In this document: positions 5,353-64,000 of the stretch, in pieces
How the letters are laid out: each line of letters begins with the position of its first letter
How positions within the stretch are numbered: the stretch's first letter is position 1
From: Phalacrocorax aristotelis
Lineage: Eukaryota; Chordata; Aves; Suliformes; Phalacrocoracidae
Reading direction: 5' to 3'
NCBI RefSeq assembly: GCF_949628215.1
Contig: NC_134278.1
Location: forward strand, 36,722,115 to 36,786,114
DNA length: 64,000 bases
Notes under the pieces: model-generated
What the model was told of the DNA's origin: nothing
The model's database searches: none
The model's input: only the letters and a program-made list of their open reading frames with translations
Position numbers and translations under genes: made by a program

Positions 5353-5459
5353 ATGGCGGGAGCCCGGCGCCCACGTGACAATTGCGCTGCGGCCGGGTGA
5401 TGGCGGCCGGGAGCGGAAGGGGGAGTGTCACGTGGGCGCTGGTTGCTATGGCGCCGTGA
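5353..5459 (+). promoter_or_regulatory. Upstream ORFs in the IRAK1BP1 leader
   Basis: Two short frames precede the main ATG. One runs from ATG 5353 to TGA 5398-5400 (15 codons). The next ATG at 5400 overlaps that stop (TGATG) and runs 19 codons to TGA at 5457-5459, passing a second in-frame ATG at 5448. The last stop lies 13 bases before the main start at 5473. Whether they are transcribed depends on the start site, so any effect on translation is inference. Confidence 0.45.
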
Positions 5460-5472
5460 GGGTCCCACCGCC

Positions 5473-5745
5473 ATGGCGCCGCCCCCCGCCCGCGTCTTCG
5501 CCGAGCTCGTCCCGGTCCCGCCGACCCCAGCCCCGACCCCGGCCCCGGCGGGACGCGGCAGTCCCCCGGCGCCGCCCGGGCGGGAGGTGCACGTCAGCGG
5601 CAGCGCGGAGCTAAGCGCCGGCCCGGACCGGGCGCGGGTGTCGCTGCGGCTGGGAAGCCGTAAGGGGGCGGCCGGCGCGGCGCGGAGCAGCGTGTCCCGC
5701 CGGCTGGAGTACATCGCCCAGAGCGCCCGCCAGCGCGGCGTCCCG
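5473..5745 (+). CDS. IRAK1BP1: IRAK1BP1 coding exon 1
   Basis: It encodes 91 residues ([14 protein letters not shown] onward) and ends after RQRGVP at a GTGAG donor, phase 0. It is extremely GC-rich because it lies inside the CpG island. The segment [16 protein letters not shown] starts the SIMPL domain. Confidence 0.92.
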
Positions 5746-8700: not shown

Positions 8701-11700
8701 TCCATCTTGGGGCCAGGACTCTTTAATCTCTTTGTTAATGGCTTGGATGCAGGACTGGAAGGAATAGTAATTAAGTTTGCTGATGACACAAAAATGGGAG
8801 GAGCTGTTGCCACTCTGGAGGGCAGAGAGGACCTGCAGAGGGATCTGGACAGATGGAGAGCTGGGCAATCACCAACCGTATGAAGTTTAACAAGGGCAAG
8901 TGCCGGAATTTACGCCTGGGGCACGGCAACTCCGGTTATACATGCAGACTGGGGAACGAGAGGCTGGAGAGCAGCCCCACAGAGAGGGATTTGGGGGTTC
9001 TGGTCGACAGCAAGTTGACCATGAGACAACAGTGTGCCCTGGCAGCCAAGAGGGCCAACCATGCCCTGGGGTGCATCAAGCCCTGCATTGCAGACGGTTG
9101 AGAGAAGGCATTGTCTCGCTCTACTTTGCACTGGTGTGGCCTCACCTCGAGTACTGTGTGCAGTTGTGGGTGCCACAGCATGTTAAGGATATAAAGTTAC
9201 CTGAGAGTGTCCAGAGGAGGGCCACGAAGTTGGTGAAGGGTTTAGAGGGGAATTCATATGAGGAGCAGCTAAAGTCACTTGGTTTGTTCAGCCTGGAGAA
9301 GAGGAGACTGAGGGGAAACCTCATTGCAGTCTGCAGCTTTCTCACAAGGGGAGGAGGAGGGGCAGGTGCTGATCTCCTCTCTGGTGACCGATGAGAGGAC
9401 CCAAGGGAATGGCAGGAAGATGTGCCAGGGGCGATTTATGTTGGATATTGGGAAAAGGTTCTTCCCCCAGCAGGTGCTGGAGCACTGGAACAGGCTCCCC
9501 AGGGAGGCAGTCACGGCTCCAAGCCTGACAATATTCAAGAAGCACTTGGACAAGGCCCTCAGACACATGGTGTGAATTTTGGGTCTGTCCTGTGCAGGGA
9601 CAGGAGTTGGACTTAATGATCCTTGTGGGTCCCTTCCAACTCAGGGCATTCTATGATTCTGTGATAAGTGCATAACCTTTGCAGCAGCAGGAGCTTGCAT
9701 TAGCAGCTCGTCAGGATGCCTGGGGGCAGCACCTCGTTTCCATATATATTTACACAGGATTTTAATCAGAAATAGATGCACACAGTAGCATTTATTTATA
9801 GAGTGCTCTGAGTACATACAGCACTTCAGAGCACAGAATCTGCTTTGAAGGCTGCAGGGGAAGTAAAATCAATGGGGAAACCAATCTCTCTTACTCAGCC
9901 CAGCTGCTCAAAAGTAACGCTTTTTTCTCTTTCTCTAGAAGCAAACTGATTTTATATTTACCACCTATGATTTATCTGGGGAGTAGTATGGAGATGACAC
10001 TTGTTTTCTTTCATCATTGTATCTAACAATTGGCATTGGCCATTTTGTTTAAAAATAACAGTAATAATATTTGTTGTACCGGTCAGAGTGTTATTTATTA
10101 AACAAAACAAACCAGCTCACAAACTATATCCAGTGCACTCTGGCTTACAGTTTGTCTGCACTGGGATATATCCTTGGATATATGTGCAATAATCTCCATA
10201 TTTCAAAACCGTTATTTAGGAATCACAGGTGTAGATACACATCCATACAGTCAGTTGAAAAGAAAGATTTTGATGTTTTGCTCACTCAGTTACAAAATCT
10301 TCCAATTTCACTAAGAAAGGTAGAAACCTGCATACGGCATCACCTTTTTTAGACTACCATGTATTTTAGTAAATACCCCAAAATATCCTTGTATTCACTG
10401 AGTACAAATCTGCTTTTTACCTGTCTTCAAATAACTGTTACATATATTTCTGTAATTTCTTGAATGGACATTAAGCAGCAGAAGCTTCGCTGTAGGTTTT
10501 TAGGTTGTCATTCTGTCCGTCCAATGCCAAACAGAACAGAGAGAGCGAGGGGATGAGAGGCTGGCGCACAGGTACCTGATGCCTAACTGGGGTACCCACT
10601 GGCAGTAGGTGCTTATCATCCTTACCTGTCCAGGGACACCATGATGGATGGACTGATAGGAGATACAAGCGTACATCAAGACTCTCATTGACTATTTCTT
10701 TAGTACTAAGAACAAAAATTATATGTTTAGGTGGAAGAAGCTAACTCTTTAGTCATTTAAATATCTTTATCTTTCATAATGTAAAGTTACATTGGATATA
10801 TCAGTGCAAATGTACAAGTGTAAATTTTAAGAGATATTTGCAGGTGTCTCCAGATTTTTTTATTTATTACTACACATACCACAATGGTGCATTAGAATAT
10901 GTTTCCAAACTATAAACATTTTCCCTTACTGAGACTGGTCTTGTGTTTCATAAAACAGTCTCACAGTTTTGTTAACTCAGTCACCAGGAGCAGAACACGT
11001 AACTTTATCTGCAGGTAGGCTTCTCTCATCCGGTATTGTTACATACCTGTCTCCTTGAAGTGTGTTTTCACTGATTATCTGTTTAGTTTTTTCCCCTGTT
11101 CTTTTCTGGGGAAAGGAGCAGTCATTCCTGTAAACAGCCATGGTGTCGTGAGGGTGGACACATTGGCCCTATGAAGAAGAAATTGTTCAGAAGTAGCAGA
11201 TAGGTAGGAGGAAGGGCTATGTAAGATTTTTTTATTTGTTTGTTTTCTGTTGAAAAGAAGGAAAATATAAGGCAAAGCACTTGATATTGTAAGCTCAATG
11301 GGATATTGACTGTGTTTCATATCTGTGTTTACAGTACCTGCAACAATGATGGTTTATGTCGCTGCTGGCTCAAAAAATAGGCTAGATAAGCAGAATGCAA
11401 GTGTGATTTGGTTAAGAATTGTTCAATGGCTTCTGGGGTAATTGAGTTATCACATAACACTAATGTTATATTCATTTAACTTTTCTACTGTGATTCTTGG
11501 CCAACAGATTTAGACAACGGGGAAAGTTATTCCAGAATTCCAGACTACCAGACACACGGGAAGTGTAGGTTTCCCTAAGTTAAAGTGAAAACTTTTTTTT
11601 CCTGTTGCTATTGCAATCAAATGGATACTTCCTCGGCCAAAATATGAACAGTAGACATAAGCAGTAGGAAAAAAAAGCCTTTTGCTTTTGATGTAGTCAA

Positions 11701-14700
11701 AGTCCTGATTCCAGTTTAAAATTCTGTCGTCACTTACCTTTTCCATGTCTTTGTCTGAACACGCTCCCGATCAGGAACAAAGTATCGCAGGAGGCCTCCT
11801 TGTTATGACTTCAGCAATTATTTAATCTATTTATCTTCAATAATACATACAGCTACTGTCAAGTCTGACGGGATAAAAATTAGCGAATTAGTGAGGGAAA
11901 TTTTATAATAGATGGTACAAAACGATCTTTCACTCCAATTGCGTTGATCTTGCAATAGTGCCTGGAGCCACAGGATGGCACTGTCCTTAAATACACAGGA
12001 ACCTTGCAGAGGGCAAAAACCAAATTAGAAGACTTTAATTCATTCAGCAGGAAGGAGGGCTCTTTCTAAAAAAGGATTAAGGAGCAGGGACAAGGGAAAA
12101 CAAATGCACTTTTTCTGTGTTTACTCTGAAGTTTTGTTACAGTATAGTTATTTCTGTAAAATCCGAGTTGTAGATGAAAGCTTTTCTGTGTGGTTATTTC
12201 TATAAGAGATATAAGAGCTCCAAGAAAAAACCTTTCTTGTCGATTGTAACTGGATTCTATCATAAATAGTAAGATTTATCCATATTGAGTTGTTGGTGCT
12301 GGACTGACTTGAGCACTCTTTCCCAAACCACAGCCAGCCACGCTGCCAAAGTACATCAAATCTATGACAGCAAAAGGGGAAATATATTTTTTTAGGGACT
12401 AACCAGCCCTGCTCCGTGCCCTTACTAGAAGAGATAATCCAAAAATAGGACTGTTGCGCTTGAATTTGAGCACTGCCAATCAATCATAAAATTGAAATTT
12501 CAAAGTTTGTTTCTTGTAGGCTGCTGTGCAACGGTAATTATGGATCCAATTTCCATACGATATTTTTAAATGATTAATGTCATTTATATAAATTTATGCA
12601 TGCATGCTACATGATAAACTTGAAGATTCGAGCCTCTGTAGGAAATATTCTAACACAGAGCATCTTTTGAAATGCGTCAACACTGAAAGCAAATATTGTT
12701 TTCCTGTGTAAATAAATTTAGTAAGTAAAACTTTTTCAGTAATTGGAAGGCTTAGTATCTGCTTCCCTATGGTTCCTGGGTATTAAATTAAAAGTTATAT
12801 TTACATTTAAATTGTAAACTGTGCTTTTTGTTGTGTTATAGTAATTTTACAATAAATTGTTCATACAGACTGTTTACCGAAGAGGGAAGTGGGTGAAAGA
12901 AATGTGATTGTTAGGCTGCTGCCAAGCCAGTCAAATATTCAGAAATAACTGGCATTATTCTGTATCTTAGTTCAGTATCTTACAGGATTTGCTAGTGCTC
13001 TGTGCAGCCATTATGTTGAATAATGTAGCTGCTGTTAATGCAAGAGTGTCACTTCTGCATTAACCTCTTTTAAGGGTTACCATTCTGCCCGAATAACCAG
13101 TGGTGTCATTGTTCACATCACCTTGCTACAAGCCACTACTGTTAAAATGTCTTAAGTGCTCTTCAGGGCCCTATTTTATCACGTACTCCTTTTCTGAAAA
13201 CAATTGACGCTTCTAGTTTTTTGAACCAGGTGAATTTACAGTTACGCACTGATACACACAGCTTCTAGCTAGCAGTCACTTGTAAGATCTAATTGTTCTC
13301 TTCAAGTGAAAAGCAGCAAAATTACATTATAAACCTACTGTATAATTTAAATAATGTCGAGAAGTCTTTAACATCCAGCTAGTTTTTAAATGAAGAGATT
13401 TGCATGGGTAATTCCAAATTTCTGTTGCTAAGTTGTAAGTAATAAGCCAAAACAGTTCAACTTTTACAGGACACAATGTACATACATTTCCAACAGATGC
13501 TTAATTTCTGGGGTTTTTTTAAGATTATGTTCTTGTACTTCGTTTTAGGAAGAAAATATGACTGTAACAGAGGATTTTAGTAGAGTAGAAAATACTTACC
13601 AAATGGAAGCAGAGGTACGTATTCAACCTAACTAAAAATAATGCTAAAAAAAAAAAGAAGTGTAGCAAGGACCAATGAAAACTTGCAGACTGTCTTTCCT
13701 CATACCGAGGAGTATATGTTCTCTACAGTAAAGGCAGCACAGTCCAAAGCAACACTTGAAGGACTGCAGTTTAAAGCAGAGTTCAGCTGCAGTCTTCCGT
13801 TGTGCACAGAACTTTGTTTTCTGCTATTGTAACATAGAAGGAATTATTTTCTTCTCAGATGAAGAATTTCTTTTAAATATTAATGTTTAAAATATTTAAA
13901 AGAATATAAATATTCTTTTAAATATTAAATATTTTAAATATTAGATTTCTTTTTAAATATTAGAGAGTGCTACAGAAGGGAATATTTGGTTCTGGGGCTC
14001 TAAGGTTGTTCTGTGGCAGTGTCAGCAAACCCACGGTCCTGCACTCTCCTTCACCCATAGCCCTTCTCGCCCTCTACTTGCAAGGAGTTGTACTGAGGTG
14101 ATCCGGTGATAGGTCAGTCCAGAAAGCTGCTCCCATTAATAACTCTTTTTTTTTTTTTTTTCCAGATTAGATTTTATTTTTTCCATTATTTTAGCTCCCT
14201 CAACTGGAGGCAATGCAAGGCAGAGGACAAGAGTGGATGGGGGAAAACAGTGGCATGGCAGCCCTAATCTAGATCTGTTTAAGCCACAGACAGTTGAACA
14301 GCACCTGGACTTTGGTCTATCCTACACGACTCTGCCATCAGCTTGCTGCAAGTAAAGCAATGCTAACTGTTTCCTAGGTAGTTGACTTGGAATTCTGTAG
14401 GTAAAAAGTGCTGTGCAAAAGCTAAACGTTACAGGAATTATCCCATTTACTTCAGAAGCAGCTCAGGAGAGTATATTTTTGCACATTCATGCTATAGTAA
14501 GAAATAAGTGCTGTGCTGGAAACATTCACTGAGGGAAATGATGTGTTTTTAGTCAGTGGATCTTTTTAGAGCATCAAACCTTAATCACTACCCAGCAAAT
14601 TTACAGATTCTTAGGAAGTAAACCTGGAAGCTTGCAATAAAATGATAGCTGTTTTATAGAGCTGTTGTTTACAGTCTCCTAAAACAGGGTTCAGCCTCCT

Positions 14701-17700
14701 TAGTTTGCTTCCTTGCTTTAAGGCATATTTCATCTAAATAACAGCACTAAATATAGAAATAATCAAGAATTTGGAGAACAAAATTTGGATTTTAAAATGA
14801 GTCTTTAGATACTTAAATACTGTGCATCAGTGTCATATTCTGAATGACTAACTTCATAAAGCAGACACCTACTATCACGAGAGCTTAAATCACCATGTTT
14901 TTAGATAAGCTATACTTAAGTAATAATTCAATATAGTTTTATTTAGGCTACAGACAATCTTAGGCTTACAACTTCAGTCTTAAGTGCTAACTTAACCAAT
15001 CGTCTCCCTGCTGCTATTAATTTTTATACAACAAGGGTTGTACGAGGAAAGCGAATTACATGGATTGAGTGTTCGTTTGTAGGCAGCTTGGACCAGCCAT
15101 AATTGCTGTTCAGAAGTTGTATGGTTGCCTAGGTAGGACCTGGCTGTCAGAACTGGAAAAATCCAGCAATAGTACCACTGTTTTGGCTGCCCTGTATGCT
15201 TAGGTAGCAGTGTGCTCGCTCTTTATGCAGAGATTAGTTTCTCCTTGCTTCCCCCTTTATGTAAGCACTTGTTTCATTAGTGCAGCTTCATAAACCAATG
15301 AAGTTCCATTGACCAGCGTGTTTGTGTGCTTTAGCAATTTAAATGAATTTAAAATTAACTTACACTCGCTGCTTTACTGAAGAGTTTGCCATTATATTTG
15401 TGTTATACATAATGTCATGGAAGTTGGCATTATTTCATTCTATAAACTCTTTACCATTTGTCTACTCTGAGTTCTTAGAAGACTGAAGAAATTCCCAGAC
15501 AAGTAGCTATTTTAAGGTACAACGAAGAATTCAAGATACACTTTCAACTGTAAGGAAATAAATTTTAATACATGCTATAACAAAGGAAAATATGCAAAAG
15601 AATGAAGTTGTGTATGAGATCACAAAGCTCTATAATATCTTAATCATAATAGTTCATTTATTGCATGATGATCTCATGTGATCATCATGGGATGAAGATT
15701 ATGCTGGTTTTGTGCATTTCTTAATACACTTGCCTCCTTATAAACCATAACTTCTTGTCCTTTACAGCCTTACCCAAACTTTATAATGTCCATAGTGGTT
15801 TTGCATACCCTCATATTACTTTTTCACACTTCTTAACCTTAATCATAATTCGGTTGAAGAAGTTGAAACACTGCTTTGCATTTTAACGCCCAGGTAACCT
15901 CTGTGAACGTAAGTGGAATTTTTTGCATCTAGCTCTAAATGAAAACTGTGATTTTTAGGGGAAAAACCCCAACAAAATTCACAGCTATTGCTCAGTTGTT
16001 TTCTCCCCTGAGGGTACTTGATTACATGCCACTTTTTTAACAAGGAAGTTCCTGAGTGCCCATAACTGCCCCAGTCTGTCTGATCATTCTTTTGTTTCAT
16101 CCCCTTGAGGGAACTAATCTTGTAAGCACTGAATGCAATCTGGAGAACACTATGACAGTCCTCATAGTGAGAGTTGCGACTTTCCACAAAATATGACTAT
16201 GACAGTTTTTTGGCAAAACAGACAAGGGCATGTATGCTTTTTATATATGGCAAGAACTCCCACTAAAGAAATAAATCTAGGTTTAGTCTCGTCTTCAGAC
16301 TTTGTTCAAACTGGTATTGCACCTTCCAGAAGGCCATCCCACCCCCAAGTTACAGATAAAGGGTGCGCAGCTGAGATTAAGATGGAGACTTGGTGCAGTT
16401 TTGCACAACAGGTGTGACCCTGTGTCCTTGTGGGAGCTAGAATTGCCCTGTCGCTCCATCTTGGTCAGTTTTTAAGACCCTAAGCCCAGTTTTGGCTCAG
16501 TTGTGTGAAAAGCTACTGAGCCAGTGCAAGGATTCAAGCCAGGATGAGGTGCATGTACTGCACTGAGAGGCTGCCAAGGGCAACAAGATGTGTGCATTAA
16601 TTGCTTTGTGATAATTGTCAATATCCATTTTTCACATTACCCTGTATAAAAAGTAGCGGCCTCCTCTCGCACTGAGGGACTCAGCTTCCCTGAATCATCT
16701 CATTTTCCACACGGTAGATCTATGGTGTGCATGCAGGAAGCTACTGCAGTGCAGCTGACATGCCGTAACTTGGATTTCTGTACCATACACCTTCACTGGG
16801 ACAGATTGCTGGATGGACTGCAGCAGTCACAGGGGTGACTGTATGTCACAGGGGTTGGCAGTGGAATTTTCTTTACCACAGCTTTTTCCTCCCCCTCCTG
16901 TTGAAGCTGTATTACTGTGCAAAAAGGAGGAGTCGGGGATAAGAGAGAAGGTGAGCCTGACTTGGTGGTGAGAGCACTGTACTGGGAAGTGAAGATAAGG
17001 GTGTAGTTCCTCTAAAGAAAAGAGTTTGAGACCTGAGATTTCTGATTCCTGAATGCTGTAGCAGTTTGGCATCATCGCTTTGCTCCTGGCGACTCTGCTC
17101 TGCTGCAGAAAAAGGCTGGCTCCTGCCTGGAAAGTCACTGCCTCGCTGGCACTTCCCTGCAAAGAAGGCTGTAGGGCTCTGGATCCAGGGCTGATAGTGA
17201 TGCTTGCTTCATAGCACTTAGGGAAGCACCTGAATTCCTGATGCATCTGTATTTAATGCTTCTTATTGCCACAGCCACAGCCAGCTAGATGTTTAAGCTG
17301 TTTTTAACCCAAATCTGAAGTGCCCAGTTCTCTGTAGGCACTAGAGTGAGGAGTCTGCTCAGCCATCACAGGGTTTTGAGCCCACTGTGAGCTGGACTGG
17401 GCCAGGCTTAGTTTAATCTCATAGTTTAGGTTTCTTGAACCCAATGCTTGGAATTAAAATATAATTTTCCTTCCTGCACAATGTTTTTCACGTCATTTTG
17501 CTTGGGCTTCTGCATAATTAACATCTAGTAATCTAAAAAGAGAAGAACCAGGCTGCATCTAGTCATGTGTCCCAAAAAGCACGTTCATTCTTCAAATTGT
17601 CTATGTACCAAGAATGCCATATTCCTCACAAAAGAGCATTTTTTATTTTTAAACCATTCTGTGAACTTCTTCCTGTTGCAAACACAATGGTAGTCTCAAG

Positions 17701-19258
17701 GGCTGTATAAAAGTGGCCTAAGTAAACAACTGTTGGAGTTAGTTATATACAGGACTAATATGTTTAGTTAGTTTGCACATATCTGGCTTTACGCTGATTT
17801 AAATACAAGTGTTGAATCGTAGGAGAAAAATGGAAAAAATTACTGGTGTGATGTCTGTGTTCACTCCCAGGTCTGTATTATATTCAGTGATTTTGGAAAA
17901 ATGCAGAATGTTTGCAATCTACTCACTGAAAAGTTAGGAACCTCTGTTACCATCAGTCCGCCTCATTTCTACCATACGCCAGAAGCTGTAGACACCCTTC
18001 GGTAAGTTCTCTCTCACGCCACAAATTTTGCAGCCTCAGGTAACAGTTACAATGAATACATAATTTATACTGTTTGTAATGGGAGCAAATAGTTTCCTTC
18101 ATACCTATTAAAATTTATGTTCAAATATTTCAGTATTTGTTTTAAATATAAATTAATGCTGCTCTGCCTAGAAGATAGAGCTTGTTCTTTCTACAGTGTC
18201 CCTGTGCCAAAGCAGAATGTAATAAAAGACTATTTTCCCACTGATTTCCATCAGAAGTACAATCTACTGTGAATATTTGGCCAACAGAATTTAACTTCGG
18301 TTACATCAGCATGTGTAGATTTAATTTGTAGTTATTCACGAAGGTATGAGTGTGTTACCAGATGTTGGTAATTCTAAGTACCCTTGCCAGTTCCCGTTAC
18401 TCTTAGCTGCTGATGTGATCTGAAAAGGACGATGTACGGTGCTTGCTCATCATCGAAACACGCTACTTTGAAGCTCAGTCTTGATATGTTAGGCATTAAC
18501 TACTCAAAGTCCTGCTTCTCCCATTAGCATTGGGGGGCAGAGGGAAGTTTAGCCTTGGTTTGGGTTTTGCCTCTTTAAAGAAAAGAATTATGCCTGGTCC
18601 AAGAAGCAAGCTCGACTAGCTGCTGCTAATGGTTCTGGAGATGTCAGAAGTGTATCTCCGAGGTACCTACGCAGGAGTCTGGAAATCAGGCCAGTGGGAT
18701 TAGGCGCTAGCATGCCTTACCGCTGGGCCACGCAAATGCCTGGAGCAAGGGTAGAACGCTGGCTCGGCACCACGCACGCCTACAGTGTACGGGTGTTAGA
18801 AATGCTTGATCGTAGCTGATGAGGATGCTGACGTTTTCTCCCCCCTTGACCTCTTAAACTATCACCCAGAACCTGGGGGAAGGTGATGTGCACTTACAAA
18901 AGCTGAGGCATGAAAAAATTGCTTGGCAGGAATACTTGTATGTCGGTTGGCCCTGCTTGTTATTGTGCTGCTTTTTCTACCTCTCAGCCGTCAAGTATGT
19001 GTTGCTGCTGTTGGAAACACACGGCGGAAGGCTCAAGAAGTCTGTCGACTGTTTGGCCAGTCATTGGGAAAACCTTTATTAATAAGAGAAGAAGAAACAA
19101 AAGAGTGGGGAGGCCACATAGACAGTCAGCTACCGAACTCCTCAGATTCACTGACTCTGCAGGAAAGAATCCAGAATGCTACTGCTTACGCTTCTTGTAG
19201 AGTGTTTGCTGTCTTTGAGATAAAGGGAAAAGAAAACAGAAGAAACAAGTTGCTCTAG
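5473..19258 (+). CDS. IRAK1BP1: IRAK1BP1: IRAK1-binding protein 1 (SIMPL), four coding exons
   Basis: The product is a SIMPL/DUF541-family protein known in mammals to bind IRAK1 and modulate TNF/IL-1 signalling to NF-kB p65. The spliced CDS joins 5473-5745, 13549-13614, 17871-18001 and 18988-19258: 741 nt, 246 residues plus stop, against about 260 in human. All joins keep phase and use GT-AG borders. Landmarks shared with the human protein are RVFAELVP near the start, [73 protein letters not shown] and the basic C-terminal [10 protein letters not shown]. The start ATG at 5473 sits in CCGCCATGG, a near-ideal Kozak context, and is the first ATG in its frame. The proline/alanine-rich stretch at residues 14-35 differs from mammals. 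A minus-strand gene converges on its 3' end. Confidence 0.95.
8145..9664 (+). mobile_element. CR1 LINE with reverse transcriptase remnant
   Basis: This is a 5'-truncated CR1 non-LTR retrotransposon of about 1.5 kb in the sense orientation of IRAK1BP1 intron 1. It starts inside the reverse transcriptase (frame [12 protein letters not shown]) and ends with the tail attctatgattctgtgat. It lacks the endonuclease part and cannot move by itself. Its 3' 400 bases match the CR1 fragment at 4657-5072 closely. Confidence 0.93.
8158..9575 (+). pseudogene. Decayed CR1 ORF2 (reverse transcriptase)
   Basis: An open frame from 8158 to 8883 carries reverse transcriptase motifs in order: [48 protein letters not shown], and the catalytic FADDTK around 8776-8793. 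Near 8855-8870 the frame shifts to one reading [17 protein letters not shown], then shifts again after CIKPCIADG at about 9100 and once more near 9330. The C-terminal part [12 protein letters not shown] ends at the TGA at 9573-9575. With three frame breaks and no N-terminal domain it is a pseudogene. Confidence 0.88.
9665..13548. other. Repeat-poor part of IRAK1BP1 intron 1
   Basis: Nearly 3.9 kb without recognisable repeats or exons. Small open frames at 11510-11746 and 12148-12483 on the minus strand show no family resemblance. Confidence 0.6.
13549..13614 (+). CDS. IRAK1BP1: IRAK1BP1 coding exon 2
   Basis: This short 66-nt exon encodes [18 protein letters not shown] then MEAE. It is flanked by a ttttag acceptor and a GTACGT donor, both phase 0. 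The sequence matches the known SIMPL domain segment closely. Confidence 0.93.
13868..13965. repeat. AT-rich repeat of TTTAAATATT-like units
   Basis: About 100 bases are made of repeated ttttaaatatt and its reverse complement, so the block can fold on itself. It lies 250 bases after IRAK1BP1 exon 2, within the intron. It looks like an expanded simple repeat. Confidence 0.6.
15664..15689. repeat. Near-perfect 26-base palindrome
   Basis: Ten-base arms CATGATGATC and GATCATCATG are exact inverted repeats around a six-base centre that is itself partly palindromic. Intronic in IRAK1BP1. Confidence 0.8.
17871..18001 (+). CDS. IRAK1BP1: IRAK1BP1 coding exon 3
   Basis: The 131-nt exon encodes [18 protein letters not shown], then TEKLG, then [15 protein letters not shown], and ends two bases into an arginine codon. 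Acceptor is tcactcccag and donor is GTAAGT. Confidence 0.94.
18988..19258 (+). CDS. IRAK1BP1: IRAK1BP1 coding exon 4 and stop
   Basis: After the acceptor acctctcag the split codon gives R, followed by [36 protein letters not shown] and a basic end at [10 protein letters not shown], stop TAG at 19256-19258. It completes the SIMPL domain and the lysine/arginine-rich tail that mammals also have. Confidence 0.94.
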
Positions 19259-19615: not shown

Positions 19616-19847
19616 AGTACAGTTCTTAACTGTTCAGTTTCTTCTGTTCTGCCCCCTGCAGAAGGGCAAGATATTTGATGTGCAAAACCTTTGGTACTCC
19701 TGTCTGAAACTTGGCTATATTTAAACCCTTCTGCCCAGATTTGAAAGGAAATTAATCCCTGTCCCAAGTCACAGTAAACTGAACATGCAGTGTGGTCACT
19801 TCTAATGAAATGGATTGTTCAACATAATAAAACAAGCTTAGGAATGT

Positions 19848-19853
19848 TTTATT
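19848..19853 (-). terminator. AATAAA polyadenylation signal of the YccV-domain gene
   Basis: Read on the minus strand this is AATAAA, about 100 bases after the stop codon of the YccV-domain gene. It would leave roughly 220 bases between the converging transcripts if IRAK1BP1 ends near 19615. Confidence 0.4.
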
Positions 19854-19955: not shown

Positions 19956-20051
19956 TCAGTCGTGAGGATAGAGTTTTTTCAGCCACGGCTGCATAATGTA
20001 TTTTGATCCATCATATCCACTGAAATAGGCTTTCATATCAGGGTGATGTAC
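19956..20051 (-). CDS. YccV-domain gene, last coding exon
   Basis: It encodes VHHPDMKAYFSGYDGSKYI then MQPWLKKLYPHD and a TGA stop. The acceptor is a ttttctcag. The HPD...YF...G..YI pattern is the part that resembles the tail of FBXO21. Confidence 0.85.
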   Translation of the reverse strand, partial: VHHPDMKAYFSGYDGSKYIMQPWLKKLYPHD

Positions 20052-23000
20052 CTGAGAAAATAATATTTCAAGTTGAATAAGCACCAGAATTAGCAATAAA
20101 TACGAAGTTATACTGAAAAGAATCATTACAGTTACTACAGTTGTTTCTGAAAACTCCTGATTTGTTTTTAAATGCATAATGTACATAGAGATACTTTCAG
20201 TGGAATTTTCCATGTACCTTAACCTAATTTATGTCGTCAGGACAGTGGGTTTCTCAAACTGTCCAAGTACTCCACAGATGTTGAACATATCTCATGAGCT
20301 ATTACATGCTAGATCTACATGGGCAGTGATGTTTTTAAATCAGCACGCCTTCTTATTGAAGTAGTTGCCCCTCATTTGCCTCTGGTAGAGCTATTTGTTA
20401 TTGTCTTTCAGCTGGACCAGTTAGCTAATCCAGTTAGGCAGCAGGAACAGTAAAGCAACAGTCAGGGAAAGGGTGAAGCCACACCAAGTTGATGGCCTTA
20501 GGTACCACAGCGTCCAACTTGAAGATGCAAAGCCACAAAGGGCAATCCAAGTTGCAGGCCTTGTCATGACACAGAAAGCGTCCAGTGCACGGGTTAGAAC
20601 TGTCAACTAGGAAAGGGTTAGGACAAGTCTAAGCATTTTCTCATCAGTCTCAACTCTTCAGGAAATTGCCTGTTAGGCTGTAGGAAAGGCTGAGTGAGGG
20701 CAAACCACAGGCCTTCATTTGAACTTGAGGTATAGGCATGACTCACCCTTTGTAATTAATCTCAAGTAGACAGCTTTCAAATATCAGGTTTTGTGAGCTT
20801 GTTACTACCAGTTGCCCTAACAATCTGTGGGGAGAATTAGCCTGTCATGCAGGTGAATAATGCAATCTGATATCCTAAAGGCTATTTTACAGAAGGTCTG
20901 TGTTTATGGTGAGGTATCTTATTCTCCCCATGGACTACACAGGTAAGCAAAGGCAGGCAGCTGACTGACATAATGAAAGGTGCATTTTTTAGACACGTAA
21001 GTTAGAGTGGTCGGAACCCAATTTTAATAGTTCCTGTTCCTAAGTTCAGGCATGTTAGCACATTTTGTATTACAATCAGTGGCTAAAACAGAAACAAGGA
21101 CTAGAACTAAGGCTTCTCCCAAATAAAAGAGGTAATGGTGTCACTGTTTGGCCCTGTTGGTTGAGGGGGTCCATTATGTGCAGTGGCAGTTTCAGGAGAG
21201 AGCATGGAGACTCGTCAGGCCAGCCTGGCTTACACAGTTCCTTTGGGGATTTTTCCTGAAAGGCGAAATTCTCCTTTGAATCTGTTTCATTAGACCAAGC
21301 ATCTCCTGTTAGACGAATGGTTCAGCTACTTGCTGTTATTTTAAATACAGATAACTGCCACTCTCCAGAATTTAAAAGAAGGCACCACAATAGCACTGGA
21401 TCCCTTACAAAAAGCCATTTCTCTGTGGCACGCATGCCTGGTGGCTGTTTTCTGGACCAGAGTCTCTAAGTTTAAGAATCAGGTGTACCTTGCATAAGCT
21501 AGAAATCAGAGGCTACCATCACCAGGATACACAAAACAGAATTTTTGGCTCCCAGAAAGTTTTGCAGGTAAGAAGGGAGACATTATTCAGTCTGGGCAGC
21601 AGCTGAGCAGAAGCTGTTTGAAATGCAGATTTTTCAGAGCGGATTTGAGAAACCAATGTACTTTGCTAGATCCAGTAGAAAGAGATTAAATGACTCATCC
21701 AGCTTTGATAGGCCAGTGAAATCCTGAAACAAAAGTCCATGTCTGCCAACAGCCTGTACATAACAGAAGTCAAGTTGCTAGAACACTTACAAAACTAGGC
21801 AGTGGGGTACTCCAAAGTAGGCAATACCTGGGTTTGGTCATTTATCACCTTCCAAAAACACATACTTGAAAGTACAGCAGTAATTTGTTTATCTGCTGCT
21901 TTCTCTACTAGTTTTCACTAACTTTGCAAAAGGGATAGTATCTATTGAGCCAAAGGTCAGCCAACTTTTAGACGTACAGGATAATGAACAAGTTGCAACT
22001 GAACAAAAAATAAATACTACCTCTAATCCCATAATAATTGTTATCTCTTCCTCAGGAATGTAAGCTGTAGATTTGCCAAATCCATTTGCTTTGTTAATTA
22101 GAATTCGATAGTGAGGAGTATCTTTTAGATCCTGTAAAAACAGAAGGAAAATAAATAGCCTCCAGGGGAGATGATGACTAAAGATCACATGATAAAATCA
22201 GTTAACTTGCTCACTAGGCTTACAGACCATAAAATCATTCAATATATACATACAGCAAGTTCACTTTTATGATCTTACCAATGTCAGTTTGGAAAACTAA
22301 ATATGAAGCAATCAAAACAGTAATACATTAAGTTCTTGGCATACCTGAAACAATTTTTAAGAGTCAAGATTTTAATTAACCTTTTCTCCCATAGATCTTG
22401 CAAGAAACATGACTTAGTTCATCCCTGCTTTTTGTATATAGGTCTCAAAACAAATTGTCACTCGCCCTTCTTCCTTCACAAGTGTCAACAGAGGACACCA
22501 GAGAGAAAGGCAAATTCAGAGCATAATACCACCTCTGACAATCTTGGTCCCAACCCTTGATAGAGCTAAGCCAACTTCCGTGTATATGTAAAAATCTTCC
22601 AGCCAAGAAAGAAGTGCGGCTTAGTGTTATTTTTACAGTGCCTGTGAACCCAAATCATGGCCAGGATCCCACCATGCTCGCTTCCACCCAGAAACATTCC
22701 TGCCCAAAGTAACCCCCACTCTAAACACAAAAAAAGTGATGGATGAATACAGACAGATAACTGGAGTTTATGAAGCAGTTAGTATCGATCAATGTGACAG
22801 GCAGTGGCCTCTGCTCAACAATGTAGTAAAGAACTGAAAGTCGGAGAAAGAAAAGGAAACTTGGACTGAAAGCCTGGCTAATGTTTAGAGGGGATTTGCA
22901 AGGACCAAGCTCAGTAGTTGCCTCGTAAAGGTCAGAAGGCGGTTTGCATAGCTGATGCACGTAACCTGAAAAGGCAAAGGCAAGTTAAAAAAAAAACCCA

Positions 23001-26000
23001 AAAGACACACACTTAAACCGCATGTCATCGGTACTGAAATTAAAGCAATAAAGATGAACACAAGGTCACTGGGAGAACAGAACAATGTAAGGTACATAAA
23101 AGAATCTGAATGCCTGATGGGAAATATATGGGTGTTCCATTGCTGACAACAACACTGAGAGGAGAAAAGGAGAGGAGAAAAGAAAGCCAGGATGCAGATG
23201 TTTTAGAAGCCAAAAATGAGTGGCAGGTGGATAAAATTACAGCGGGGAAGGAACAAAACGCACAAAACAGGACTGGATGTCTGCTCCCAGCTGAACACGA
23301 ATTCTCTGCTACGGGGAGAGTTTCTCATCTTTTCTCATTTTCAGTCCTCTTTGACTTAATGATCAGTGCCTTCCTGCCACTTAAGCAGCATGGCAGCAGC
23401 CAACCCACAGAGTATGCAGTGCTGTATTACCAGCAGCTCCTTCAACAAAGATTTGGCATCTGATTTTCAAATACAACAAGGACTTAGGCTAGAGAATTTC
23501 AAAAGCTTCAAGAATTCTGACAAAAACATGTTGTTAAATAGATTTACATTCCAATTGTCCAAATCCCCCAAAACATTGCTTTCTAACTGCAGCTGATTAA
23601 ACACAAAGGATTACTTGCCTTTCTTAGGTGGAATGAAGATGTTACCAATTATACCTACACTGGAAAATCAGACAAATGATTTAACAGCCTCTCAACTTTA
23701 GTAAGACACCACAAGAAATCCCTTCAAACATTATACGTTGACCCTGCTACTGTAAAAACAACACTGCGTATTAGAAGTGAGTAATTTTAACTCGAGACAT
23801 GCCCAGTAGAACCCTGACTAGCAAAGCTTAACCAATCAGTGGTGCAAAAGCAAAGCTCTACTGAGGCAACAGCGCAGAAGCAGCAGAGGGGATCGCTCAG
23901 CTGCAGAGGTGATGCGGGACTCAAGTATCTCCCATGAGGTTAGCAGGAAGTCTGTCTGTAACAGTGTTTCTGAGTTGTTTTTTTTTTAACCTCAGTTATT
24001 CTGTGTATGTGTTAATAAAGCAAGAGTTGAATACGTTCACACCTGTTTGGCTGGAGGGTATTTGTGTTGTAGCCAGTCTTCTGGAGCGTTAGCTTTTACA
24101 TCCCATCCAACAATGACTCCTGAGTAGCCAAATCTTTTGTGAACTATTACCTGTCCCACACTGAACTGAATGTATTCAGGCTTTGGACTGCGAACATGAG
24201 TTGATTCTGATTTAACAAAGAAAGAGACTTAGCAAGGGTAAGTGGTTGATCAAGTACATTAAACATTTAAACAGACATTCTCCTGACTTCTACCAGAAGA
24301 GACATGATAGTTAGATTAATAGGCAAATTAAACAAGGGAACAGGTGCTTTGTTTTCACCCTGCCCAGACTTTTACTATGATATTTGGCAAAGCAGCATCC
24401 ACCGAGGGACACACGTTTCTATTTGTATGCCTTTGATATTACACAGGGGTCTTAACGGAGTTTTGGAAAGCATAAACACATGTATATGTTGACAGTTACT
24501 GAAGCCTTACATACAATATTTTACAGTGCTTACACATGCTAACTGATTTTGCCATTAATTTTTTTCCAGTTTAGGTCACAGGATTCTTCTATTCAGTCTG
24601 ACTGCAGGGAATTTCTTTCCAGGAGCAGACTGATCAACTGTTTCTTTTTCCTTTTATGAAGTTGATCTAAATCACTTCATTTGAATCAAGTGAAAGCTAT
24701 ACCACTGTTTCATACATCAATACAAAACAGGCACACTCAGATCTAGTCAATAAAATAGATATGTGCATATAGTATATCACATTGATACTGCAACACAGCA
24801 CAGGGTGAGAAGGCCTTGGATTTTTGCTGTTTTGCTTACTGAACATTATCAATAAAGTTTAGAGAGAAGGAAAGAAAAAGACTACAATTTACAAAGCAAA
24901 TATAGAAATCCACTATAGAAGACCTTATAGAAGACAATATCATAGGCGAAATGCAAAAGGGTTGCAAAGACTCCAATACCTGCAAAATAAGAATGGGTTT
25001 CTGCTTCACTGTCGCCAATTTTAATTTTCTTTTCTCCATAGTACCAATTCCTAAAATGTAAAATTAATAACCCAACATTCAAACAAGTTCTTTAGAAACC
25101 AAGTTTTAGGATAATGGGCTTTCTGATTGTTCCTAGCTTAAGCATTTGTCTGAATAGAGGGATGCTGCAAAGGCTTTGATACAAAATTCTTCACAATTTG
25201 AAGACCAAACAGAATAAGATCTTTACATTAAAGCTGCTTTTAAGGAATAGATCACAGAATGGTTTAGGTTGGAAGGGACCTTTAAAGGACATCTAGTCTA
25301 ACCCCCACTGTAATGAGCAGGGACATCTTCAACTAGATCAGGTTGCTCAGAGCCCCGTCCAACCTGACCTTGAATGTTTCCAGAGATGGGGCATCTACTA
25401 CTTCTCTGGGCAACCTGTGCCAGTGTTTCACCACCCTCATTGTAAAAAATGTCTTCCTTATATCCAGTCTCAATCTACCCTCCTTTAGTTTAAAACCATT
25501 ACCCCTTGTCCTGTCACAACAGGCCTTGCTAAAGAGGTTGTCCCCATCTTTCCTATAGTCCCCCTTTAAGTACTGGAATACACAAGCCAAAGGAATTTGT
25601 TCCAACAGGAGAAAAAAGTATTAATCTAATTTCTTTGGAGATGTAACTGTACAGTTGCATTATAATCTTTGTATCACAGGAAACCCATTTATTTTCTGTA
25701 GGTGAGCAAATACTATTCTGAACTCTAACAGAGCGATTCTTCAGTATCTTTTGTAAATGCTATTGTGAAATCTTTAAAGATTGGTTAACATTGGTATGGA
25801 CAAGCTGTCTGGCAATGTATCCCAGCTTAAAGCTACAATAAGTATAACTTCTGCACTAGGCTGAGTTTCATGTGAATTTAAAGGATGGAAGCTAGGGGAG
25901 GGACATCTTTAAAAAGGTGAAATGGCCTACGTTTTACACTGCCACTGTGAAAAAGAGTGTAAAGAAATAATGAGCAAACGCAACATTTAGCGGGGGTGGG

Positions 26001-28803
26001 GGGAGCCTTCAAATATTCTTTCTGCTGGCAGTGGAACAGAAGCAGTGCATGAAAAGATGTATTTGGGTTAAGATTCTCCATCCACACCAGTCAGCAATCT
26101 GTTGGTACCAAAGAACTACAGCTTGTCCTAGCATCCCTCCTTTTTTATGGTGTTCACCGCCTTCCCTCTTTCACTCCTACTCCCTTCACCCTGCCTGGAA
26201 GAAAGTAAAAGCAGGTTCCACAACTCTGCAAACAATACTTTTTGTTTAAAAGTCTTGGTTTAGCTAAAAGCTGTGGGAACACTTAAAGTTGACAAATACC
26301 TTTTAACAGGAACAAGAAAGGGCAAATATCCTGACTTGTCAGACTGCATTGTTGAAAACAGCAGCTAATATAGTAGGTTTGGAAGGTCTCAAATTCAGTG
26401 TATTTTTAGGATAGCCAGTTAATTCTTTATCAGATGAGATATTCAGAAGACACAAGCAGCTCCAAAGGTTCACTCCACCTGCGAAGGCTTTATCTTTAGA
26501 TATGGCTGGAGCTTTCCACAAAGTTGCAAAGCAATTTAGAGTGAACCTAGGAAAAGCAGAGTTTCTGCTTCCATCCATATACTGTTCCCCGAGGCTTTCC
26601 TGGGGGCAAAATTAAGTCTGAATCTTCCGCAGTTCAGATGACTTGATAGCCTTGACTGTTGTACATGGACCAATAATAAAAGATTTTTGAAGGTCCAGAC
26701 AATGTAAAATCATTGGAGTAATTCTACTATAGAAGAATTAAATTTCACAAGCAAGCCTTTTAACTTCCCCAAACATGTCCAAGCAACAGTCTTCTTAAAT
26801 TGAACTGGCATATATATAATATGGATATAACTTTACCTTTTCTAGACCAACTCATTGTCATGTGTCCAATAATCAAGTTTCCCCTTCTTCCCAAACCCAT
26901 CTGCATTTTCTAATTCAATTTCAAGTTTTCTTGAACTGCCATATGCAGTGTAAGATGTCCATCCCATGTTGTAGGATCTGATCCTACAAACAGGTAGCTG
27001 CTTACAGTCATTAACATGGTTAGTCCTCCTGACTTCACAGTCAGATAAAGTAGAGGATAACATGTATAGAATCACTGCCATGATTTATATTTAGTTTTGC
27101 ATGGAGTTCAGATTGCATGTTTATGTAGAATATAGGCAAAAGGTTTTCTTAAAACTGGTAGTAAGGCCCAAATCAGTGTCAACAGAAAATAAGAGATGTT
27201 TCCCCTTTGTAACTTATTTCACTCCTACAGCATGTTATCCCGTTAAGAAGAGGCCACGTTTGAAATTTAAGTGCAGTGCAGAGGGTATATTACATCCTAC
27301 CTTGTTATTGATAGCCACAGCTTTAGACGATCTGCCCATGCATCCAGATTCAAGTAAGACTTTGTAAAGCTGCTCCAAGAGGCAATTATCCTTTAGTAGT
27401 AAAAATTATCAACACATCGTTTTAAAAACCTTCTCTAGTATTTGTATATACTTTTAAAAAATATTTTAACTTTAAGGCTTCACTTCTGTAGCAAATGGGG
27501 ATAAAAGAATAGTCAGTGACCAGGAACAAGTTCTTCTCAACATTACTATCTAGATTGCAAATTAATATGCTTTCAATGGTCACTTGTACCAGTAAACCAC
27601 ATATAAATTTTGGAAAAATGTAACTTTTCATTACAAGGTCACTTGCTTTCTGTACTCAGACCATAGGAAATGCTAACTTGTGTCAGATTCTGCAGTTTCA
27701 ACTCTTACTTGAGAATAGCGAGCGTGAGGTTTCAAAAATGGTGCATGTAATCAAAAGGCTATTAAAAATTATCGTAAGAGTTTTTGCATAAATCTAAATG
27801 GTTAGTAGTTTACTCATGCCGTGAAACCTGAAAATTATTTAAATCTGGGTCTTTGCACAAAAAGCCAGACTTCGTTTTTTTATCAGGCCGATTATTTGTT
27901 CTCATTACTTCATGTATTTGAGTTCTACAGATGAACAATACAACCAATGCACTACACGGGCTGCACTGTTAAAAAAAAGTCACAGAAGTCTCTCTTTGCA
28001 TGGTTCATCTTCAAAATACCAACATTTGTCATTGGTTACCACTATCAAATATTCGGACCCGATGTAGTATTCTCCACTTTACATTTGGAGAGAGATGTAT
28101 GCGACCCTGTGAATACATAACATCTTAATTCATATGCAAAATGGCACTACTTACTTAACTATCATTATGGCTCCCTTAAGTAATTTACTACGAATGAATA
28201 GTAAGTAATGAATAATAGAATGAAGAGTTGGTTAAGACTCTGTACTGAGTCATACTATGCAAGAAAATCTATTTTAACAGTGTCAAAAGTGTCAAAAGGT
28301 AACGGAAAGTTAGAAATAGTCTAATCAAACACTCCATTTTCCCCTTTTTAAAGGGACATAACCCATAGTGATATACATTGGAATTTCCAAAAGCAGAATG
28401 AGATTAAGGCACAGTTGTGCCCTTGCACAGATTATACACGGATTTTCATGTGATGAAAACAGTGGTGGCTATTCAAATTTTGAAGCACATCTTTAAACAA
28501 CCTAATACAGTCACATTAAGCCACAAAACTGTCTGAGGTATGATTTGAATGTTTTTTTCGTGTAGGGATGGCCAGTGTGTTCCACCCACACTCCAACTTC
28601 CTAGGACAAAGTGTCATTGGGGATGAGAAAGAGAACTCTCTTATAAATAAATACAGTAGGGAAGGAGAGACTTACAACCTTTCTGTTATGAGGATGCGCT
28701 GAGCAGAGTCTGTTCCATACCACTGGGATATGAAATATTGTGCAGGAAGTGCAGACAGCAACACGCAAATCTGCAGAGCTGCAGCTGCATTGATGTGAGG
28801 CAT
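19956..28803 (-). CDS. YccV/HspQ-like domain protein, five coding exons
   Basis: The spliced CDS joins, in transcription order, 28803-28676, 25050-24980, 24206-24043, 22131-22021 and 20051-19956: 570 nt, 189 residues plus stop. All introns are GT-AG and every phase fits. Residues 6-26 form a hydrophobic segment (AAAALQICVLLSALPAQYF) that could be a signal anchor. Residues 81-151 match the YccV/HspQ (hemimethylated-DNA-binding) fold: FSVGQVIVHKRFGYSGVIVG then WD, a loop with P-DW, HYRILI, and AYIPEEEI. The end, HPDMKAYF then SGYDGSKYI, resembles the C-terminal tail of FBXO21 after its YccV domain. No F-box is present. Bacterial HspQ acts in protein turnover and plant ClpF is a Clp adaptor; the role here is unknown. 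I cannot assign a gene name. The ATG is in exon 2 with a G at -3. Confidence 0.85.
20052..22020 (-). other. Intron of the YccV-domain gene
   Basis: GT-AG borders. No exon, repeat family or RNA gene is recognised in its 2 kb. Confidence 0.75.
22021..22131 (-). CDS. YccV-domain gene, coding exon with second half of the domain
   Basis: This 111-nt phase 0/0 exon encodes DLKDTPHYRILINKANGFGK then STAYIPEEEITIIMGLE. The HYRILI strand and the AYIPEEEI segment are the two C-terminal YccV signatures. Acceptor tttttacag, donor GTAGTA. Confidence 0.88.
22132..24042 (-). other. Intron of the YccV-domain gene
   Basis: A purine-rich stretch lies at 23155-23190. Otherwise I see nothing recognisable. Open frames on the plus strand at 23110-23463 look like chance. 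Confidence 0.7.
24043..24206 (-). CDS. YccV-domain gene, coding exon with first half of the domain
   Basis: This 164-nt exon completes a split glutamate codon and encodes STHVRSPKPEYI, then FSVGQVIVHKRFGYSGVIVG, WDVKANAPEDWLQHKYPPAK and Q. The GQV-HK-FGY-GVI-GWD series is the hallmark of the YccV/HspQ family. Acceptor ttaaatcag, donor GTGTGA. Confidence 0.92.
24980..25050 (-). CDS. YccV-domain gene, short linker exon
   Basis: This 71-nt exon encodes NWYYGEKKIKIGDSEAETHS then YFA, phases 2 to 1. It links the N-terminal hydrophobic part to the domain. Acceptor cattttag, donor GTATTG. Identification depends on phase continuity on both sides and open frame. Confidence 0.82.
25253..25610 (-). mobile_element. 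CR1 LINE fragment, minus strand
   Basis: This is a 3' CR1 fragment of a subfamily different from the 4.7 and 9.3 kb copies. On the minus strand it reads GDNLFSKACCDRTRGNGFK, GRLRLDIRKTFFTMRVVKHW and LPREVVDAPSLETFKVRLDG. The 3' end (left) carries the block ggttggaagggacc in its complementary form. It lies in the intron upstream of the linker exon. Confidence 0.92.
26837..26983 (-). other. Possible cassette exon with in-frame stop in the YccV-domain gene
   Basis: On the minus strand a tgtttgtag acceptor and a GTAAAG donor bound 147 nt that fit the phase of both neighbouring exons exactly. The frame gives IRSYNMGWTSYTAYG and GFGKKGKLDYWTHDNELV, then TAG at 26844-26842, just before the donor. 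If spliced in it would stop the protein ahead of the YccV domain. It is not needed for the 189-residue product and may be chance. Confidence 0.3.
28676..28803 (-). CDS. YccV-domain gene, first coding part (start codon exon)
   Basis: It encodes MPHINAAAALQICVLLSALP then AQYFISQWYGTDSAQRILIT and ER, ending two bases into a leucine codon. The exon starts upstream at 28845 after a long T-tract and ctttttag. In this frame the upstream sequence has no ATG back to a stop in exon 1, so the ATG at 28803-28801 is the best start. The hydrophobic run suggests a membrane anchor or signal peptide. Confidence 0.82.
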
Positions 28804-28845
28804 TCCAACAGGAAGTTCTTCAAAGGCACTTCCCTGCTCCCTAAC
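28804..28845 (-). other. 5' UTR part of exon 2, YccV-domain gene
   Basis: These 42 bases between the acceptor and the ATG are open in the coding frame (VREQGSAFEELPVG) but have no start codon. An alternative acceptor TTAG exists five bases in, at 28841. Confidence 0.55.
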
Positions 28846-30338
28846 CTAAAAAGAAGGAAAAAAAAAAAAAAAACAACAAAAAGAGAGACAAAAAATTTGC
28901 AATAAATAGCTGCTCTCCATGAACAAAATTCATTGTGCTGCTTTATCACCTAATTATTAAATATCTAAGTATTAATCATGTGTGACATATCAGACTGATG
29001 GCCTCCAGAAAAATCTATTTGGATGCAGTGATTATTGCACATACAACAGAATGAAGAGATTTTTCTTTCAGATTGAAGGGAGGCACAGCATCGTACCAAG
29101 ATATCAGAGTGTACCACAGTCCCATCATTAGACTAGCAAAGGATTTGATATCACCATTCATTCCACAGGCACCTGCCACACTTCACCAATGCATTAAGAT
29201 ATTCCTGACTCTTCAAATTAAGATGTTCACCTGCAGATGAGGAGCACATTTACTGTCTTTTTACACCTGTGAAGATTTACCAAATCCAAACTGGGACTTG
29301 CTGAAATTTGAGATTTGTACCTCTTACTCAAGCATTCTGAGAGTGCACAGGTTTACTGCAGCCTTCAAAGAGTCATCTGTATCCACTCCCCATTCTGTCG
29401 CGTTAGTCTCCAGTAGTGGCTGTTTCAGCTACTACTCTCTAGTAGAGTACTCAGCTTGCAAGCACAAGCAAATTGTTTCAGTTGTTTCTGAGTTGCTTCT
29501 ACTTTCTCCTGTTGTTATTTACAACATTTACGCAGAAATTTGGGTTCCTGTAATATATCCAGCACACGTGTACGTGGGAAGTTAGATTTATTAAAACTGC
29601 CTAGCAAAGGCAGTTAGGATCACAAAATAGTGCTGATGGAGGCCCACAGATATAGTAAGGAATATGAAAACATCTGCGCATGTGATGAAGTTACCAGAAA
29701 CTGCATTTTTCACTTCTGCATCACCTGCTTTAGAGCCAACAGCAACGAAAAAACATCTCCTAATTTTAGACATTATCGGTAGCTGTACATCTAGGCGTGT
29801 TAACTTGTGTGTGTTGGGGGGAAAGGACGAGTCACATATCCGTGCAACAAAACAACCGCCTGCCAGGCCGGAGCGGGGGACAGGACCCCGCAGGGGAAGG
29901 CTGCCACTTGGCCCGCAGCCTTCACCCAACGCGACCGCACACCTTGTGTCGCTGACGGTCCTTCTCCTATTTCTATAAACAGCTTTTTAAGCAGCTGGAT
30001 CCACCAGACGGGAAGGATGCAGTAGCAGAGAGAGAGAGATAGTCTGGATCCAAGCTAGAGCCCCACCGAATCAAAATACTTCTGCGCATATTCTGAAGCC
30101 CCTGAACACCTGTCAGAAAGGAAGGGGCTCTGCCTGTACCCCAGCGGGGGCCAAGCCTCCTGGCCGGTATTTCTGCCACAAGCCCGGGCACCGGCGGCAC
30201 GAAGCCGACACGGGCCAGTCCGGGAACAGCCCCGCAGCCCTCCTCCCCCGGACCACCGGCCCTCAGCCCTCCTCAGCCCCGGCGGCTCCCGCTTCCCTCC
30301 CGACCCCCGCACAGCCGCCGCCGTAGGCAGCCCCTCAC
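28846..30338 (-). other. Intron 1 of the YccV-domain gene
   Basis: GT-AG intron, with a T-tract (A-run on the plus strand, 28858-28873) just upstream of the acceptor. Most of it is AT-rich except where it enters the CpG island. Confidence 0.5.
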
Positions 30339-30680
30339 CCGGCTGTGGCCACAGCGCAGCGCGTCCCGCTCTCCGGCAGCTCCGGGCGGCAGGTGCTAGG
30401 CTGGGCCGGGCTCGGCTGGGCCGGGCTTGTCTGGGCTGGGCTGAGCTCCCCCCGCCCCGAGGGGCGGGCCGCGAGCTGCCGGCGGCGGCAGGTAGCGGCC
30501 GTTGGGGGCCGGCGGACATCTTGTGCGGCTGAGGGGAGCGGCGGGACGGGACCGCTCTCGGCTTCGCGCCCTCCTCGGCATAAACGTTTAAACGCCGAAA
30601 ATGAACCCAGAGCAGTGAACGCTGCGCCTGACGCTCGGGTCAGGTGCCCAGGCGGGGAGGTGAGGGGTATCCCCCTTCTT
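29850..30680. promoter_or_regulatory. CpG-island promoter of the YccV-domain gene
   Basis: This is an abrupt island of G+C- and CpG-rich sequence, densest at 30170-30560. It sits at the expected 5' end of the minus-strand gene. No TATA box is evident. It could also fire toward the plus strand, but no plus-strand gene is seen beyond it. Confidence 0.75.
30339..30540 (-). other. Non-coding first exon, YccV-domain gene (approximate)
   Basis: A good donor, CCGG then GTGAGG, ends this exon at 30339 within the CpG island. The 5' limit is a guess. It contains an ATG at 30519 whose frame, after splicing to 28845, meets a TAG two bases into exon 2, so it would act as an upstream ORF of about 60 codons if included in the transcript. 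Confidence 0.45.
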
Positions 30681-31599
30681 TTTGCAAGTTAGTTTTAAGC
30701 AAATGATACTTACAACTTCCTTAAGTAATTTTTTTTTCTGTGAAGGTGGACAATTGCCTTTAACCTGCTATGAAGAGAAGTCAGGAGGAAGTTCTCTAAC
30801 TGTGAAGTTGATGCAAAAGGCATCACGTTTTAATATAAACTCTTAACCCAGCCTCACGGTGTGCCTGTCACCACCCTGTTGGTATTTCAGGGAGCGCTTG
30901 GTGGTCCCTGGGCCTGGTTTTGTCACAGATGGATGAAGGCGTAGCTGAAACAAAAGTCTCCTGCGTGGTTTCGATAGTGCATGTGTCAGCTGTCAAGAAG
31001 AGCCTCCTCCTCTGGGCCTGTGACTGCTGAGCTGCTGCACAGCGGTTGAAGCCAGTTAATGAGTCTCCTTTCTTTGTCAGGGGTTTCTTTGGTGTATATT
31101 CATCAGTGATCAAATTTGTGGGAGCAAACAAAGGAGGATAGACTCAAACTGCAAGTGACCCAGAGAGATCAGAGCAATGGGACCGTTACAGGCAACGGGA
31201 AATGCAGCAGTAGCAGATGTTGAGTCTTACTGAGGGAGAGGAAATGTTCTAGCCGTCTCTCCTCGCTTACTGAGCACATCTCTGTAAAGAGCAATACCAT
31301 GAAAAAAAGGGAAAATGTTATCGAGCCGTACCTCGTTTAATAATGTAGCTTACTGTTCATGGTTTCTTCAGTAACATAGTGATAGTTACACTTTTCAAAT
31401 GAAAAACTTCAGAAAACTTCAGAAAGTAAAAATTATCTCAGAAATAATTTGAAAAATGCAGGAACTACACCGTGTGATGATACAGACTGAAATACCTCCT
31501 GCTTTCTGTAGTAGATAAAATGAACAATATACAGTACAAACAGTGGCCCAATACATAATATTATTAGATACCTAAAAAGTCATTGTGTCTCTTCTTCAT
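30681..31599. other. Intergenic, nothing recognised
   Basis: This is the upstream flank of the CpG island between the YccV-domain gene and the PHIP 3' side. I see no exon or repeat. Confidence 0.5.

Positions 31600-45423: not shown

Positions 45424-64000
<18,577 letters not shown>

Follow-up and report, generated by a model that had tools for sequence, protein, structure and literature searches.

The genome of Phalacrocorax aristotelis carries, between PHIP and a gene that we take to be IRAK1BP1, a gene encoding a YccV protein, and we are highly confident that it is real and protein-coding. Its product looks like a genuine addition to a known domain family, ordinary in the domain it carries and unusual, for a vertebrate, in standing alone. 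The domain itself, YccV/HspQ, is of bacterial type and is known mostly from proteins that help in protein breakdown. All positions given here are those of the window, the whole 64,000-base stretch that was analysed (C3:36722115-36786114 in a 1.28 Gb genome assembly).

Gene structure and domain identity

When joined by script, five minus-strand coding exons between 28845 and 19956 (Table 1) yield an uninterrupted, in-phase product of 189 amino acids, reproducing the coordinates, phases and length that a sequence-only reading of this DNA had proposed. All four introns between these exons are of the GT..AG type. The frame of exon 2 is open upstream as far as the exon's acceptor, and 204 codons would be expected to run without a stop by chance with a probability of about 1e-5, given the stop frequency of the minus strand. 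Splice sites were scored with a splice-site matrix and ranked against every GT or AG on the minus strand; those of the YccV gene fall within the best 0.02-14%, the weakest being the exon 5 donor (13.7%), the exon 3 acceptor (10.2%), the exon 3 donor (8.5%) and the exon 6 acceptor (8.4%).

Table 1. Features of the YccV gene and its neighbours, in window coordinates
Feature	Position	Strand	Evidence
Presumed IRAK1BP1, neighbour, convergent with the YccV gene	5401..19258	+	SIMPL domain (PF04402)
Poly(A) signal AATAAA, about 100 bases past the stop	19848..19853	-	
Exon 6, domain end and C-terminal tail (HHPDMKAYFSGYDGSKYI...LYPHD), stop codon	19956..20051	-	FBXO21-tail and HspQ-tail alignments
Exon 5, C-terminal half of YccV domain (HYRILI...AYIPEEEI)	22021..22131	-	PF08755 across junction; FBXO21 and HspQ alignments
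Exon 4, N-terminal half of YccV domain (FSVGQVIVHKRFGYSGVIVGWD)	24043..24206	-	PF08755, spliced and exon alone
Exon 3, linker, residues about 43-66	24980..25050	-	Splice sites and phase
Exon 2, start of the coding part (ATG at 28803); residues 1-43 with the hydrophobic N-terminus	28676..28845	-	Splice sites and phase
Exon 1, probably non-coding, CpG-rich promoter, approximate 5' end	30339..30640	-	CpG observed/expected, GC, donor
PHIP, C-terminal exons, upstream, same strand	45427..62552	-	Bromodomain identity

The domain assignment is strong. The 189-residue product matches the Pfam YccV-like model (PF08755) over residues 80-174, with an E value of 2.5e-24 and 86 bits against a gathering threshold of 22.8, and the match covers positions 2-100 of the 101 in the model, that is, a complete YccV domain, as had been proposed. 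YccV-like was the sole family found in a Pfam scan of the product at E values up to 1, in agreement with the earlier description of a free-standing YccV protein. Two NCBIfam equivalog models for HspQ gave different outcomes: TIGR02097 was passed (65.6 bits, cut-off 38.05) and NF010729 was failed (25.5 bits, cut-off 135). Among 12 PDB matches listed at E<=10, HspQ (5ycq) was the only sensible one, at an E value of 0.027 that is not significant alone. Exon 4 by itself reaches 47.6 bits (1.9e-9) in a genome-wide six-frame PF08755 search, and the 86 bits of the spliced product therefore support the way in which exons 4, 5 and 6 are joined.

Residues 1-66, encoded by exons 2 and 3, are without homology support and are based on frame and splice signals. 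This leaves room for an alternative in which these two exons are mis-predicted and the gene makes a soluble YccV protein from exons 4-6 with another N-terminus, for example a POLDIP2-like mitochondrial presequence, and the middling splice sites of exon 3 point the same way. We consider it improbable, as both exons are open and in phase and the exon 2 acceptor ranks among the best 0.07% of AG sites.

Upstream of the coding exons, GC content is 0.63-0.81 and CpG observed/expected 0.77-0.99 over 30300-30700 (two 200-base steps), which agrees with the CpG-island first exon claimed earlier; the donor after 30339 ranks in the best 0.2% of GT sites. The span of 19956..30540 previously given for the gene ends inside this CpG exon, and the coding part starts at 28803. 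A scan from 30800 down to the main start, with the CpG exon taken as spliced at 30339, found two upstream ATGs on the minus strand, at 30581 and 30519; both start frames of 61 codons that end ahead of the main ATG, the second of them at the junction of exons 1 and 2. As both frames close in this way, translation of the YccV frame most likely starts at 28803. If the transcript begins 5' of them, the upstream ATGs may reduce how much of the YccV frame is translated.

The N-terminus and localization

The N-terminus is hydrophobic, as the earlier reading had it, over residues 6-25; before residue 32 only His3 is charged or partly charged, and the basic residues that follow the hydrophobic stretch (R36, R42, K50, K51 and K53) leave none within the first 35. 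The further suggestion of membrane anchoring fared less well. The best 19-residue window, AAALQICVLLSALPAQYFI, has a Kyte-Doolittle mean of 1.68 and a positive rough insertion energy, which disfavours a strong anchor, and a membrane anchor is thus a tentative reading of these residues that we regard as somewhat doubtful. Under the positive-inside rule for membrane topology, the basic residues that follow would, if the stretch is an anchor, place the YccV domain in the cytosol, although this is a weak prediction. With no basic residue in its first 35 positions, the protein does not begin like a typical mitochondrial protein with a presequence, and it is accordingly not predicted to touch CLPX or LON directly in the matrix.

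The same run of hydrophobic residues, with His3 as the only possible charge ahead of residue 32, could instead be a cleaved signal peptide, making the product a secreted or ER-lumenal protein with its YccV domain outside the cytosol. This is unlikely in our view, given that there is no basic n-region and no N-glycosylation site, that the sole cysteine lies inside the hydrophobic stretch, and that the relatives described in PMC7647994 are active in bacteria, in plastids or in the mitochondrial matrix.

Locus and distribution

The plus-strand neighbour, which we presume from its sequence to be IRAK1BP1, is represented by stop-to-stop frames at 5401-6009, 17823-18002 and 18914-19258; two of the three contain the SIMPL domain and 17823-18002 contains none. 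On the other side, BRWD_AD and bromodomain matches were found in two of three PHIP frames tested, and the second bromodomain is identical to that of human PHIP in the PDB at 114 of 117 residues. BRWD3 was considered for this minus-strand neighbour and ruled out on the strength of that identity and the far lower score of BRWD1. Both neighbours are as named in the sequence-only reading.

Some 590 bases separate the IRAK1BP1 stop from the poly(A) signal of the YccV gene (19258-19853), and with plus-strand AATAAA hexamers at 19591, 19826 and 20095 the 3' ends of the two genes may overlap. A 264-residue open frame on the plus strand (8089-8880) resembles a CR1-type LINE reverse transcriptase, and shorter CR1-like pieces lie near 4.0-4.9, 9.1-9.6, 25.3-25.6 and 31.6-31.8 kb, the third of these inside the YccV gene, in the intron that separates exons 2 and 3.

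An inversion that involved PHIP and IRAK1BP1 together has been inferred from comparing fugu with human (PMC533870). For human 6q14.1, PMC5732689 names HTR1B, MEI4, IRAK1BP1, PHIP, HMGN3, LCA5 and SH3BGRL2, plus 'several different RNAs', and in another place puts the number of genes in the region at six; its lists place no gene between IRAK1BP1 and PHIP, which is weak proof of absence. Background knowledge and these gene lists incline us modestly towards loss of the YccV gene in mammals. A possible absence from mammals would also fit a bird gene that is itself decaying or silent, the remnant of an ancestral YccV gene; this is very unlikely, as its 189 codons run without a stop or frameshift and a CpG-rich promoter and a poly(A) signal are present.

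Across the whole genome, a six-frame PF08755 search scored three candidates, two of which passed an E value of 0.001: exon 4 of the YccV gene and one exon on contig C15. The C15 exons are, judged from their sequence, presumably FBXO21; five frames scanned there contained Transglut_core2 (two), YccV-like (one) or nothing (two), and the first two families are in keeping with FBXO21. A six-frame protein search with the 189 residues listed only the five exons of the YccV gene, even at E values up to 10, although the reach of this search is limited, as it missed FBXO21. POLDIP2 was absent from the matches of both genome searches, with the PF08755 model and with the 189-residue protein. One copy of the stand-alone YccV gene was thus found in the genome by these sequence searches. 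Viral contigs were scanned with the single sequence, a search limited to close relatives, and no match was confirmed.

Zebrafish annotation presumably includes an uncharacterized YccV-domain gene, si:dkey-261l7.2, and a literature text search on that name returned no paper. No stand-alone vertebrate YccV gene was noted among the papers listed by the literature searches. Public annotation may well include the bird gene as a computed prediction.

Relationship to other YccV proteins

The known vertebrate YccV proteins are FBXO21 and POLDIP2. The earlier reading had put FBXO21 forward as the best-known vertebrate case, and FBXO21 is not the sole other animal one: as described in PMC7647994, POLDIP2/PDIP38 also carries a YccV domain, through which it docks to the zinc-binding domain of mitochondrial CLPX. 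POLDIP2 further contains DUF525 and a sequence that targets it to mitochondria. Compared by description, the new protein resembles POLDIP2 as an animal protein with a YccV domain, and the Pfam scan of its 189 residues revealed no DUF525/ApaG domain beside it. Plant ClpF has a UVR motif beside YccV, and the same scan found none in the new protein. Also by description, ClpF is similar in being a eukaryotic YccV protein, one tied to Clp proteolysis (PMC7647994), and differs in being a plastid protein.

FBXO21 of the same genome aligns with the new protein from residue 67 to the last residue, with 36 of 124 positions identical (29%; E 2e-15). Among the best 80 bacterial rows, which were chosen by two patterns from the query alignment, are mostly Proteobacteria by title and are no fair sample, the best score was 63.2 bits (35% identity), and the leading identities reached at most 36%. 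FBXO21 scored 56.2 bits against the new protein, ranking 7 of 82 with the query included and below several bacterial rows, and a profile of the 80 bacterial rows scores the two animal rows at 64.3 and 60.9 bits.

In the 82-row alignment, the new protein and FBXO21 have the same residue at 33 positions. Of these, eleven (Phe81, Gly84, His89, Asp102, Pro127, Tyr129, Tyr145, His161, Pro162, Phe168 and Tyr176) occur in 79-80 of the 80 bacterial rows, as does Val97 of the new protein, and seven (Gly100, Trp101, Glu149, Glu158, Tyr186, Pro187 and Asp189) occur in none, the count at 186-189 being zero where the bacterial rows end before these positions. These seven include the GW ahead of the conserved Asp and the terminal YPxD. 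The earlier claim of an FBXO21-like tail calls for correction, as much of the tail is ordinary for HspQ (His161, Pro162, Phe168 and Tyr176).

HKR-[FY]-GY, GWD and the terminal YPxD are common to the new protein and FBXO21, which differs in having an F-box (PMC4887211) and, in this genome, Transglut_core2; the Pfam scan of the new protein at E values up to 1 showed neither. Introns within the domain fall between HKR and YGY (phase 2) and between AAQ and ENL (phase 1) in FBXO21, whereas those of the new gene fall between PAKQ and DLK and between MGLE and VHH, both in phase 0. Because these positions differ, the new gene is no recent copy of FBXO21, a duplication that the 29% identity also rules out. 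Bacterial HspQ resembles the new protein in its single domain, in the TIGR02097 score above cut-off and in identity of up to 36%. The new protein has GW where HspQ has D-[VI] (80 of 80 rows), a few extra C-terminal residues, and an apparently longer N-terminal part with the hydrophobic stretch.

A tree joins the two animal rows at 93/90, which is unsure, with end branches near 9-10 changes per column; as both rows are saturated, their placing is not firm. On sequence grounds, the new gene and the domain of FBXO21 likely come from a common, old eukaryotic stock. Recent bacterial transfer or assembly contamination, which the identity of up to 36% to HspQ might suggest, is dismissed: the coding part has four introns, the locus sits between IRAK1BP1 and PHIP within a 131 Mb contig, no bacterial row among the best 80 is closer than 36%, and the FBXO21-matching residues occur in none of these rows, with introns and divergence ruling out the transfer.

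Proposed role and significance

The precedents for function come from other YccV proteins. HspQ makes Lon degrade some substrates more readily, and modulation of ClpS is believed to be the role of ClpF (PMC7647994). A fragment of FBXO21 that contains the YccV domain (466-628) binds ASK1 (PMC4887211); as this fragment also contains a coiled coil, the binding may involve more than YccV. By analogy with HspQ-Lon, ClpF-ClpS, FBXO21-ASK1 and PDIP38-CLPX, and from relatives at about 30-36% identity, we give about even chances that the new protein is an adaptor in regulated proteolysis. Its YccV barrel would dock a client or partner machine, and docking would tune which proteins get degraded, on the pattern of HspQ with Lon and of PDIP38 with CLPXP; in an SCF ubiquitin ligase, the C-terminal region of FBXO21, with its YccV domain, may act likewise. 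Without an F-box or second domain, the new protein could be a free adaptor or a competitor, and its hydrophobic N-terminus may tether it to a membrane. DNA binding, the idea in the family's name, is a possible alternative role. The full picture of a membrane-tethered, stand-alone, HspQ-type proteolysis adaptor from FBXO21-domain stock, kept in birds at IRAK1BP1-PHIP and lost in mammals, is a speculative one that we put forward as unlikely to hold in every part.

If expressed, the gene would provide a third vertebrate YccV protein, without any other recognized domain. If mammals lack it, birds and mammals form a natural comparison. Such a protein would offer a way to examine what YccV itself does in an animal, free of any accompanying F-box or DUF525.
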